Shown: piece by piece, positions 21,538-63,990 of the stretch
Layout: each line of letters opens with the position of its first letter
Numbering within the stretch: position 1 is the stretch's first letter
From: Chamaelirium japonicum
Lineage: Eukaryota > Streptophyta > Magnoliopsida > Liliales > Melanthiaceae
Direction of reading: 5' to 3'
NCBI GenBank assembly: GCA_947650365.1
Contig: OX393550.1
Span: 47,467,860-47,531,859, forward strand
DNA: 64,000 nt
Translations under genes and position numbers: made by a program
Notes under the pieces: generated by a model
The model's input: the letters and a program-made list of their open reading frames with translations, nothing else
The model's database searches: none
What the model was told of the DNA's origin: nothing

Positions 21538-21573
21538 ATATATATATATATATATATATATATATATATATAT
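21538..21573. repeat. (TA)n microsatellite, left side of foldback element
   Basis: About 18 TA units directly abut the GGGTCAGGATCGG terminus of the foldback element. A matching (TA)n tract lies on the other side. Confidence 0.95.
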
Positions 21574-21971
21574 GGGTCAGGATCGGATGACCCAGCAAAT
21601 TTTGACCCATTAATAACCCAGCACCCTTTGAGGCACTTAGAAGTTATAGAATGGGCTGATTTTTTGTAGGGATGTTGTCTATGGTATGTTGATCATCCTC
21701 ACAAAAAATCAGTCCATTCTAAAACCTCTAGGTGCATCTAATGCTCACTTCAAATCAAGGGTTTTTTACTGTCAATTTTAACCGTTGATTTGAAGAGCAC
21801 CCTTTGATGCACCTAGAGGTTTTAGAATGGGCTGATTTTTTGTGAGGATGATCAACATATCATAGACAACATGTCTACAAAAAATCAGCCCATTCTAAAA
21901 TCTCTAGGTGCCTCAAAGGGTGCTGGGTTATTAATGGGTCAAAATTTTGATGGGTCATCCGATCCTGACCC
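21574..21971. mobile_element. 398-bp double-hairpin foldback element inserted in (TA)n
   Basis: The whole sequence is an inverted repeat: GGGTCAGGATCGGATGACCC at the left end is mirrored by GGGTCATCCGATCCTGACCC at the right. Each arm contains its own inner hairpin, AGAATGGGCTGATTTTTTGT paired with ACAAAAAATCAGTCCATTCT, around a loop with GTTGTCTATGGTATG and GATCATCCTCAC. The centre is CTTCAAATC ... GATTTGAAG. It has no coding capacity and is flanked on both sides by (TA)n. Size and architecture match the element at 37082-54424 once its nested retrotransposon is removed. Rice Micron elements are a known precedent for insertion in TA microsatellites; identity with them is not claimed. Confidence 0.8.
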
Positions 21972-22090
21972 TATATATATATATATATATATATATATAT
22001 ATATATATATATATATATATATATATAGAGAGAGAGAGAGAGAGAGAGAGAGAGAGAGAGAGAGAGAGAGAGAGAGAGAGAGAGAGAGAG
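21972..22090. repeat. (TA)n followed by (GA)n microsatellite
   Basis: (TA)n from 21972 to about 22026 continues into (GA)n to 22090. Dipeptide-repeat ORFs here (Ile-Tyr, Arg-Glu) are artefacts. Confidence 0.95.
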
Positions 22091-22593
22091 CGAAATGCAC
22101 ATGTTCTCTACAATCAAGTTAAACTTGTAATATTCTTTATTGCACGGTTTGCACCGAATTATTTTTTGGTTGAGTGAGAGTAGGCTCCATATTGAACGGT
22201 GTAAATTTTAGATCGGACGTATCCTCTACTTTTTAGTGAATGGTCCGGACGAACCCGAGCAACCCGAGGAACCCGATGAACTTCCATGGTCCAAACACGG
22301 GCAAACCCTCTACAAGTTCCTCGGGCAACTTGGGTAATTTGGGCAAACGTAATGCAACTTGGTCCAAACACGGTCAGACCTTCAAACCCGACCAACCCGA
22401 CCATGTCCACCCCTAGGCGTTGGGTTAGGTTTAGGTTAAGGTTTTTTAATATTTCGTGTTGATGATTTCTGCTAATATAATAATAAATAACATAATCCAC
22501 TGTTTCTCCTCTTGAGTCTTGACTCTTAGTGCTCTTTCATTTCTTTCTCCGTGATCTCTTTCTCTCGCTACTTTAGCGAAGAAACCAGGAAAC

Positions 22594-60095: not shown

Positions 60096-62329
60096 TTACA
60101 AAAAAATACCTTCATTAGGAGATGCCACTGAACCTTGTGACTCAACCATTTTTCGCAATACAGGACAATTATGTTTGTCATGATCCGCTCCTCGTATTCC
60201 ACATCCATGACATAAACGATCCTTAGATTTAGCTTGCTCCATAGACATCTCCTTTCCTCCCTTAAATCTCTTCCCACTGCCTTTAGTTTTTGAAACATCT
60301 GGTGGATGAATATATATTTGGGGTGGATATGACGTTATAATGGAATCATAACTTCTTTCATTCTGATCTTGACTTGATTTCAACTGATCCAATTCTTGAT
60401 TAACATTCACCAATGCATCGTGGAAAAGCTTCCCAGCTTCAGGTGAAGATTTTGCTTTAAGGATGCACTTTTGCAGGATCTGAGACCATTCATCTGTAGA
60501 TGTATATGATGTTGTATTATGACTTCCACGAAGTTCGACACCAGCAACATCAAATACAGGATTAGCCAGTGCATTTATAGTCCACCTATTTAATATATAA
60601 TGATACGGTAAAGAGGTGACAAATTGCAATCTCAGGACGAGTAACAGATGTCTGCATGGAACCCCTTCAGTCACAAACATTTTGCAGCTGCAACTTGCTT
60701 TATTATTTTTTTTCGTATATTTCACGATTTTCAATTTTAATTCTCCTTCTTTCTTTACCGTATAGGTAATAGAACAACCATCCATATTTGTTGGACTTGT
60801 ACCGTATTGCATGCTTTCGACCAGTTCATCTTGAAATAAGTTAAATATGCCCCGTGTATAAATAGTTGACATTTGTTTTTCTATTGCAAAAGTTGTTTTC
60901 ATCTGTGGCTTACTGTTAATAGAACTATGGTCGGCTTCTAACTCACGATGTCTCATTCTCTTGACTGTCATTTCAAAATTGGTGTAAAATTCAACTAATG
61001 TGTTTTTCTTCCTCACATAGTTGGAAAAAAATAAGTTTATACTTTCACTACGCTGTGTTGTCCTGCATCCTGCTGTAAAAATATTCATAGAGTATGCCGG
61101 TATCCATTTAGCACGAATTTCGTATAAAGATGTCAACCACTTGTTACCTTACATTGCATTATTTTCAATCACATCTTTCCATTTTGCCTCAAAATCATTA
61201 GGAGTTTCTGAGTTCCAAATGCAATGTTTAAAAGGATTGATAAAATTATTATCATACGCCTTTGCACCTAATTTTTCAGAAACCTTACTGATGATATGCC
61301 ACATGTAGAATCGATGATGTGCTCGTGCGAATACTAGTCGAATAGCAGCTGCCATTGTCGGATCCTGGTCAGTGATGATGACTTCGGGCTCTTTGTTACT
61401 CATGGCTTCTAAAAACTTCTGAAATAACCAAGCAAATGACTCTGTTTTTTCATCCTTTAAAAATGCAAGCACCAAAAACTGTTGACTGACCATGGTGATT
61501 AATTCCAGTAAAAGGTGCAAATATCATTAAGTACTGATTTGTTTCAATATGTTGTATCGAATACAACAATATCCCCAAAATAGTGGTATGCTTTTCTTGC
61601 CCTACCATCAGTCCGAAAGCAGTGTGTTAATCTGTCCTCATCATCAGATTCAAAAGCATAAAAAAAACTAGGATTGCTTTCTTGGTTAGTTTTAAAATGC
61701 TCCAATAAATTATACGCATCATATTCCTTTTCAGCATGTTTTTTCTTCTGATTCAAATTTCTGATATCTCTTTCTGTGCAACCAATGTTCTCATACCCAG
61801 CAGATTGAATTCCTAAAAGTGAGATAGGTTTTGAAATGCCTATATTTGCTGTTCTTGCTTGTTTAAACAATACCTTCTTTGTTGGGGTAATTTGACGGTG
61901 CGATGGAAACAAATGAGTTTTACTTGGTGTTGCAAGAGGGTGGTTGTGCCCTTCCGTAAACTTTGTGACAGTCCATTTTTCCTCTGAATTTTTGGTAAAT
62001 CGAATATATGATTTACAAACCGCTCTTACAATATTTCTTCTCCGTCTAACTTCAACATCCAAAGGCCTCGGCCTTATATTGGGAGTTCCCTCCTTAGCGC
62101 ATACAATAACCTTATATTGTAACTCTTTTGTTTTTGAATGATATCCCGTAGACGAGCTACGTATGCCAAACCCTCCCTCCCTTGCATATTTTGTATAAAA
62201 ATCTTTTCCTTCTTCTATTGAGTCAAATATCATCCCTATTTTTGGTTTCAATTCTTCGTTAGTTTGCGGTATATACATTTCAGAATCTTCCATGTCTTCA
62301 ATATTCAGAGATGTTTCGCTTTGTTCCAT
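60096..62329 (-). pseudogene. FAR1-type MULE transposase, disabled by two frameshifts and a stop
   Basis: From Met at 62329 the first 261 codons hold an acidic leader and the FAR1 zinc DNA-binding domain (C in VCAKEG, C in VCKSYI, H-H in EGHNHPL; about residues 35-140). They continue to the first catalytic Asp in VFDTTY. A 1-base shift follows near 61545 and a second near 61480, after which ITDQDPTMAAAI gives the second Asp. An in-frame TAA lies at 61149-61151. The last part (to 60096) has RSESINLFF with the catalytic Glu, a SWIM zinc finger (CSCKMF ... VPCRHLL) and a terminal zinc knuckle (CHGCGIRGADHDKHNC). All DDE residues survive. Normally it would cut and join MULE ends in the nucleus. 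FHY3/FAR1 light regulators derive from this family, but the SWIM, zinc knuckle and TIR setting mark this one as a transposase. Confidence 0.9.
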
Positions 62330-62985
62330 CGAAATCTAATTATTTGAGCAAAGTGTTAAATTGATAGAATTCGAATATAATAACTAATAAAACATAATAT
62401 TAAGGTATGAGGTTAAATATAGGGTTAAATATTATGATAACTATTAAGTATAAATGTGATTTGGAAGAAAATTGAGACATTTTCGGCTTATTACTTTAAA
62501 TAAGGAGGTATTTTGGTTCTTGTTTAAAAGTGAGGAGACATTTTTCATGTGATAATTCTATCATAATAAATATATGTAAATAAGTGTTGATTTCCACATA
62601 TTTACAAAAAAAATTAATATTTTTAGTTTGGAAATTAAAAGCATCAGGTTTCTAAAGCATCTTAGCCACATATTGTTGATCAATTTTCTAAAAGTCATTT
62701 CATAAATTTTGAATTTTGATAAATTAAATTGGTGGGTAAGTGAATTGTTATTTTCTCAATTCCCTGTTTGTATGTATTCCATGATTGAATGCCTTATTTA
62801 ATAGATTTTTGAAAGGCTGAATGTATGTCTTATTTTCTCGATTCCCTGTTTGGATGTATTCCATCAATCAAAAGCCCAATAAATGTAAAACAACATCTAA
62901 ACATTATGCAAAAGGATGTACAACCAAAGATTGAGGATTGCTTACATATCTGGAAGCAAGGTCAGTGGGAGCTTGATGCTGGCTT
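62330..62985. other. Upstream region of the transposase, AT-rich
   Basis: Non-coding, about 650 bp between the transposase start and the right TIR. Promoter elements of the - strand gene would lie here or in the TIR. TATTTTCTCAATTCCCTGTTTG and a near copy (about 62750 and 62832) form a short direct repeat. Confidence 0.45.
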
Positions 62986-63885
62986 CCTTCCATGACTATA
63001 TGCCCTCTTTCTTCTCAGATCTTGAGTAAAAAAAATATATCAAGGTTTCAAGTTGGAAAACAAGAGTAATAGGGGAAAAAAGGAAAACAAAATAAAATAA
63101 TGCAGAGGGTTAGGGTGTAACCTGCTGCGATTTGGGGTTTCTCCAGCCCGGATGGGATTTGGAACTCAGATCATGAGGGGAACAAGAGTAAAGGGGAAAA
63201 AGGGGGAAAATAAAATAGGGTTGATGAACCTTCTTCCAATGCTGCGATTTTGTTTTCCTTTCCGGGCTCTCGGCGGGAGGGATGCCACCCAAAGAGCTCA
63301 GATCTGAGAGGAATGCCACCCAAAGAGCCAATGCTGCGATTTTGTTTTCCTCTCCGGGCTCTCGGTGGGAGGGATCTGAGTGGGCGCTCGGCGAGAAGGA
63401 TCTGAGCAGGGTGAGAGAGGGATCTGAGCGGACGAGGAGTGATAGGCTGCTGCGGTCTCTTTTCCCTCTCCGGGCTCTCAGTGGGAGGGATCTGAGCTCT
63501 CGGTGGTGGGATCTGAACGGGGTGAGAGAGAGAGAGGGCGGCTTGGCGGTGGGATCTGAGCGGGCGGCTCGGCGAGAGGGATCTGAACGGGGTGAGAGAG
63601 AGAGAGGGCGGCTCGACGGTGGGATCTGAGCGGGCGGCTCGACGAGAGGGATCTGAGCTCTCGGCGGTGGGATCTCGGCGAGAGAGCTCTGGGTGAGCTC
63701 GGTGATAGAGAGAGAACTCAGATCTGAGAAAGAGAGGGAGAGCGCGCGCTCAGTTCTGCGATATGTACGGCGATTAGTTTTTTAATCCGCACCTCTCACT
63801 GGACTGTTCGATCAAAACCAATCGGACGGTCCGGGCATAACACCGCATCTATTATCACGCCGCACGTCGCAGCCTATCACTCCTC
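62986..63885. repeat. Right terminal inverted arm of the MULE
   Basis: Inverse of 54598-55860, about 900 bp, lacking the H+-ATPase piece. The outer 200 bp include a small hairpin (GGACGGTCC region) and AGAGCGCGCGCTC. The inner part has GGGATCTGAGCGGGCGGC tandem units. ORFs within the arm are artefacts of these repeats. Confidence 0.85.
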
Positions 63886-63990
63886 ATATATATATATATA
63901 TATATATATATATATATATATATATATATATATATATATATATATATATATATATATATATATATATATATATATATATATATATATATA
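63886..63990. repeat. (TA)n microsatellite, right side of the MULE
   Basis: About 52 TA units abut the MULE terminus and end at GGCGTGCTAG, the last bases of the window, where a further element may begin. Confidence 0.95.

Follow-up and report, generated by a model that had tools for sequence, protein, structure and literature searches.

Mutator-like and foldback elements very probably inserting into (TA)n microsatellites of Chamaelirium japonicum

Why should several transposable elements of different appearance all lie in (TA)n microsatellites within one stretch of plant DNA? The question is raised by 64,000 nucleotides of the Chamaelirium japonicum genome (contig C2, OX393550.1, positions 47467860-47531859), hereafter the window, in an assembly of 1.52 Gb and 3,253 contigs. 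A first-pass annotation of the window had noticed four elements abutting (TA)n, named here el1 to el4, and had suggested target choice for (TA)n. Relatives of the four elements were searched in the whole genome, together with copies of one target site standing without any element. Our answer is that these are, very probably, Mutator-like DNA transposons (Mutator-like elements, MULEs) that insert into (TA)n microsatellites.

Reading the flanking tracts confirmed that all four stretches adjoin (TA)n. The first, el1 (21574-21971), recognized by sequence reading and self-alignment, is a 398-bp foldback, i.e. palindromic, element with ends GGGTCAGGATCGG; it has (TA)17 on its left (21539-21572) and, on its right, (TA)28 (21972-22027) continued by (GA)31, the whole spanning 21972-22089. 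The 138-bp foldback element el2 (32257-32394) is immediately preceded by (TA)41 (32175-32256) and followed by TTT(CT)19(TA)18 (32395-32470). Further right, el3 (37082-54424) lies between (TA)22 (37037-37080) and (TA)76; the latter, joined to (GA)11 (together 54426-54599), separates it from el4 (54600-63885, minus strand, the first base being uncertain within the GA run), and el4 is followed by (TA)52 (63887-63990). At 63991-64000 begin the first bases of a fifth, el2-like element, which according to a read extended past the window (L127, 11-147) ends near C2:47531986 and is followed by (TA)46, so that it also sits between TA tracts. Hence el3, el4 and the fifth element are consecutive, separated by nothing but TA or TA-GA. 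The window contains eight pure TA tracts of at least 15 units: seven touch el1-el4 directly or via (CT) or (GA), and the eighth (57010-57059) is internal to el4.

The stretch called el3 had been taken for one element, a description that had to be replaced. By alignment, it consists of a foldback element of about 400 bp, whose left half (37082-37245) includes GGGGG at 37241-37245 and whose right half lies at 54190-54424, split by a long terminal repeat (LTR) retrotransposon (37246-54184, minus strand). The outer 164 bp of el3 form inverted repeats, 94.5% alike, and its relatives elsewhere mostly measure 379-401 bp, without the inside. The retrotransposon starts with TG, ends with CA and has GGGGG on each side, the second copy being at 54185-54189, and the uninterrupted relative L045 has this site once. 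The duplication of GGGGG around the insertion, set against the single site in L045, indicates that the foldback element came first and that the retrotransposon is a later, unrelated arrival, not targeted to TA. A single 17-kb transposon is ruled out by the short uninterrupted relatives together with the nested retrotransposon and its GGGGG duplication. A run of 500 N (36460-36959), probably an assembly gap, lies just left of the left TA tract of el3.

Is the association with (TA)n a property of the families, rather than of this window? A genome search with el1 returned 2,697 first-look candidates, 40 of which were scored. In the 30 loci read, which are the best-scoring ones and include the window copy, at least 12 pure TA bases were found on at least one side in all 30 and on both sides in 25, the five others having one side with shorter or interrupted TA; the median flanking tract was 70 bp. 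A more even sample was obtained by taking every fifth of the first 100 listed among 3,020 exact matches to the 19-base end, and 17 of these 20 ends stood directly on 21-80 bases of pure TA (the reading limit being 80). For el2 (3,973 candidates, 40 scored), TA was found at most 80 bp away on both sides in all 20 copies read among the 39 others listed, and the right-hand TA was preceded by a (CT) run in 15 of them. In the el3 family, 45 of 47 end motifs from 27 other loci (not counting the window copy or the duplicates L041 and L068) adjoin at least 12 bases of TA. Finally, a search with the el4 terminus gave 70 candidates and 41 listed matches; the outer flanks were read for 38 of them, excluding the two of the window and C1:111401383, and 36 were on TA, 25 on at least (TA)6 directly or within a few bases and 11 via a (GA) run. 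These figures are to be compared with the genome background. Subtracting 32-base from 30-base TA matches (1,913,612 - 1,842,735) gives 70,877 tracts of at least 15 units, with a mean of 41 units and one tract per 21.4 kb, for a total of 5.8 Mb, or 0.383% of genome bases. Long TA is thus common in this genome, yet rare as a random landing place. With most copies read of all four families lying in TA tracts, the target choice proposed at first pass is upheld.

One of the four elements indicates what the movers may be. The ~9.3-kb el4 has long terminal inverted repeats (54601-54934 and 63546-63882, 94% identity), and its transposase gene (60099-62335, minus strand) was recognized by domain matches to FAR1 (61547-62335), MULE (61152-61523) and SWIM (60099-61148), with an E value of 4.9e-16 for the MULE domain PF10551. 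From these alignments and matches, el4 is a FAR1-MULE-SWIM Mutator-like element, and its own gene is read as disrupted because the three domains fall in different open frames. When the MULE-domain piece was used as the query, 735 candidates were returned, of which 150 were scored; among the 21 best matches (window included), 19 lie at most 7 kb from a listed el4-type terminus. Stop-free frames of 757 residues occur in three of them (C8:40693914, C11:59063132 and C413:96904). The only one of these that was read, L130, gives complete matches to MULE (3.5e-31) and FAR1 as well as a match to SWIM, and its element lies in TA at either end (L123, L122); in the other copies read, L128 and L129, the frames are broken. 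A second lineage is represented by L131, whose protein is 69% identical and whose 729-residue frame matches FAR1, MULE (4.8e-33) and SWIM. This element of 6,948 bp lies between (TA)70 and (TA)12, and is chained with three shorter palindromic elements. As its inverted repeats of 1,193 bp are 99.5% alike, its insertion is probably recent.

The small el2 is connected to these coding elements by its ends. Compared by eye, the el2 terminus GGGGCATGCTATGCTGCGGCATGCGG and the el4-type terminus GAGGAATGCTATGCTGCGGCGTGCGGC are nearly the same, so that el2 shares its termini with a transposase-coding MULE. In all 20 el2 relatives, TGCTAT is preceded by two to four G plus CA, AA or AAA; since the window copy is without these G-rich outer bases, comparison of copies indicates that its left end is eroded. 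For el1 and el3, membership of the MULE superfamily is inferred by analogy only. The first-pass annotation had mentioned a linked autonomous partner as something that would be new. Open-frame relatives of the el2/el4 type in TA do bear out such a partner; its novelty is not borne out, as coding partners lying in microsatellites were already described for Medicago (AutoMuTAnT, 2015, PMC4486113) and guayule (AgS-MULE, 2018, PMC5907723).

We therefore propose the following course of events. Short foldback copies (el1, el2, and el3 before the retrotransposon) encode no protein and would depend on a transposase supplied by larger relatives; el4 would be such a relative, its own gene now being disrupted. 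Most likely, a transposase of the FAR1/Jittery type inserts these elements into (TA)n, and we lean towards the transposase itself, perhaps with a host factor, as what chooses the tract. Because each insertion would leave TA on both sides, later insertions could take place beside earlier ones rather than inside them, producing chains such as el3-(TA)-el4-(TA)-el5. The (GA)n and (CT)n found at some ends have most likely grown by slippage starting at GA and TC bases in the ends of the elements.

Several observations weigh against this proposal, or narrow the counts behind it. Three of the 20 sampled el1 ends are not directly on pure TA: (TA)n is followed by GAT in L154, (CA)n then TA is found in L167, and in L157 the flank itself matches el1 in short stretches. 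All sampled el1 ends are on contig C1, and the exact 19-base match implies that old copies are missing; likewise, the el2 and el3 samples consist of best-scoring copies and may favour young ones. Two of the 38 el4-type ends (L114, L119) are not on TA. The 0.38% chance figure covers pure tracts of at least 15 units, while adjacency for el2, el3 and el4 was accepted from 10-12 bases. No target duplication of 9-10 bp was seen; such duplications are unreadable inside (TA)n, and insertions outside TA were not read from both sides. Apart from the leading G run, the termini of el1 and el3 have no likeness to those of el2, el4 or L131. A coding element carrying either kind of terminus was not found, the only candidate locus read being L172 (C6:33950429), which has a 736-residue frame and, in the 8 kb read, neither long inverted repeats nor matching ends.

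These last points bear on whether all four elements were moved by the same transposase lineage, as follows from the single transposition machinery envisaged at first pass. In favour of it, the elements share the same target and form mixed chains, and they are less unrelated than they had looked: besides the nearly identical el2 and el4-type termini, el1 and el3 have in common a core of 276 bp with 70% identity, their termini being different. On the other hand, the leading G run is all that links the el1 and el3 termini to those of el2, el4 and L131, and the many further MULE-domain genes among the 735 candidates mean that other lineages may serve el1 and el3. A single machinery is supported for el2 and el4 only, a pair with nearly matching termini for which the genome contains transposase genes; its extension to el1 and el3, without a matching transposase, is possible but doubtful.

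A different route into (TA)n would be recombination rather than transposase choice, with circular or excised copies entering by exchange between TA tracts, as in the model put forward for SaTar elements (PMC5907723). Chains are what such a model might draw on. Around copies of el1 and el3, neighbouring TA tracts within the 3-kb loci (L009-L068) are occupied by short elements of many other families, whose ends include GGGAATGCTTAGG, GGGGAGGGATACTC, GGGAAATGAGTTCC and GTAGTGATACATTG, and the loci read contain non-nested chains of unlike elements. So many unlike families at the same target speak for recombination, as does the (CA) run on which at least one el1 end stands (L167); the guayule paper argues for it from non-TA microsatellites and the lack of target duplications (PMC5907723). 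Yet neither circles nor filler are shown by any of the loci read; the (GA) and (CT) runs, the latter present on the right in 15 of 20 el2 copies, are best accounted for by slippage from the element ends, as argued for pineapple (PMC8449440); and elements of the el4 type, which carry a transposase, have clean ends in TA. We consider recombination a rather unlikely route compared with insertion by a MULE transposase.

Insertion into (TA)n further requires that the tract be the target, and not a part of the element. Three loci, L059 of the el3 type and L086 and L087 of the el2 type, are alike in their left flank as far as the TA, the last two being assigned to this target repeat by the left flank only (86% and 98% identity to L059). 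With the two flanks of L059 joined as a query, the target proved to be a dispersed repeat (1,149 candidates, 40 scored). Twenty places were read, picked by their alignment (ten across the join, six gapped, four with the left part only), so that the counts are not frequencies. Bare (TA)n was found at the site in 16 of the 20 places and elements in three. The ten places aligned across the join have 8-18 bp of bare TA, and the six gapped ones 43-95 bp, mixed with CA in L145. Among the four with the left part only, L148, L149 and L151 contain elements in TA, the right flank of the repeat resuming in L151 beyond the element and its TA, and L150 continues into other DNA. Overall, the tract of this repeat hosts elements whose ends are of at least four kinds. 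Because bare TA stands without an element in the target repeat while unlike elements interrupt other copies, these alignments indicate that the (TA)n tract is the target, the empty sites being paralogous. The bare-TA copies reject the tract as a constituent of the elements, and what might have overturned the first-pass proposal, namely copies mostly outside microsatellites or TA belonging to the elements, is the reverse of what was found.

Tract length seems nevertheless to be changeable. Loci L012 and L017 have the same flanks and the same element, with tracts of 97 and 127 units in one and 53 and 53 in the other, which points to a change of length after insertion and duplication. This leads to the idea that the elements spread their own landing sites: after insertion into short TA, growth of the tract, or excision leaving long bare TA, would create new targets for unlike families. 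We hold this idea to be unlikely. If it were true, it could explain much of the 70,877 long tracts as well as the chains of unlike elements, and the target repeat, with its short bare, long bare and occupied copies, allows it to be tested directly.

A rival explanation, that the elements enter ordinary or barely TA-bearing DNA and make the (TA)n themselves as TA grows afterwards, is improbable. It can appeal to maize TAFT-type insertions, which enter TA sites of 6-8 bp that expand later (PMC5907723), to empty sites reported as shorter than occupied ones (PMC4486113), to the ten empty sites of only 8-18 bp described above, when occupied tracts are often far longer (as in the el1 median), and to the unequal tracts of L012 and L017. 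It is countered by the six of 20 target-repeat places that carry 43-95 bp of bare TA without an element, one of them mixed with CA, and by the at least four kinds of end that use this tract. Some TA hence precedes insertion, and later growth may be added to it. As for chance, even with 70,877 long tracts in the genome, the binomial probability of finding 17 of 20 el1 ends on TA is about 1e-38 at a rate of 0.383%, and the much higher rate given by shorter tracts would still fall short of 17 of 20, so that tract density set against the el1-end counts contradicts chance placement, which the first-pass annotation had rightly held unlikely and which we dismiss.

Elements of this kind are already known, and those described here are new members of the MuTAnT/SaTar/Ac-mMITE kind. 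The closest description is that of MuTAnT and AutoMuTAnT in Medicago truncatula (PMC4486113), which are likewise short foldback MULEs lying in (TA)n; their coding partner, itself flanked by TA, encodes a Jittery-like transposase. Like the elements here, they have G-rich termini of varying length, and the terminal inverted repeat mask GGGGTTTGCTAG resembles the L131 terminus GGGGATTGCTAG, the comparison being made with the published mask only. The two systems differ in numbers: Medicago has 218 MuTAnT copies and one coding element, whereas C. japonicum has thousands of candidates for each family and several open-frame copies in two lineages. They also differ in the 9-bp target duplications of MuTAnT, none being shown for our elements (PMC4486113).

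The SaTar and AgS-MULE elements of guayule and rice (PMC5907723) are likened to ours by description. There too, unlike microsatellite-flanked MULEs form non-nested chains and autonomous relatives lie in microsatellites, and empty TA sites were shown in rice; in 11 of 15 families, some members also occur outside microsatellites, where they have 10-bp duplications. Again by description, Ac-mMITE of pineapple (2021, PMC8449440) consists of very numerous, clustered foldback miniature inverted-repeat transposable elements (MITEs) on (TA)n, one end bearing (GA) and the other (TC); an autonomous partner was reportedly not found in pineapple, whereas coding relatives of el2 and el4 are present in C. 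japonicum. Micron of rice and TAFT of maize, short elements in (TA)n, are of the same kind as described in these three papers (PMC4486113, PMC5907723, PMC8449440). In a 2025 survey of 207 plant genomes, Micron-type elements were reported mainly from the Poaceae and Rosaceae (PMC12550479). The present genome contributes the number and variety of the elements, the TA-flanked elements with open frames, and a series of places where one target repeat is either bare or occupied. How Mutator-like elements enter (TA)n is left unsettled by these papers, between a TA-specific transposase with tract growth and recombination (PMC5907723); open transposase frames in TA, together with the series of bare and occupied sites, make both target choice and tract growth testable.

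Other features of the window concern the contents of the larger elements. Within el4, a fragment at 55369-55647 (minus strand) resembles plasma-membrane proton ATPases (match to 5ksd, E 5.8e-19), and was probably captured by the MULE, judging from this match. A possible GRF zinc-ribbon gene lies at 55909-56482 (plus strand), with a domain match of 22.9 bits, below the Pfam cut-off of 25.9. Alignment also revealed the el4 terminus a third time, in the interior of the element (59674-59755); this internal copy is found as well in L128 (about 5288-5371) and L129 (about 4038-4121).

The retrotransposon nested in el3 has LTRs at 37246-39458 and 51900-54184, whose alignment of 2,289 columns shows 18 mismatches and 10 gap openings (95.7%). 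Domains of gag, reverse transcriptase, RNase H and integrase were matched on its minus strand. The long minus-strand frame stops within the reverse transcriptase match (46580/46581), RNase H and integrase being in the next frame, so that pol looks interrupted. Opposite gag/pol, an open frame of 843 residues (40380-42908, plus strand) contains a plant mobile domain (PF10536, E 2.5e-19). Elsewhere in the window, a mixed (GT)n/(TATG)-(TA)n microsatellite at 4797-4982 adjoins none of el1-el4, and a direct repeat of 484 bp occurs at 7701-8183 and 9952-10435, with 98.6% identity.

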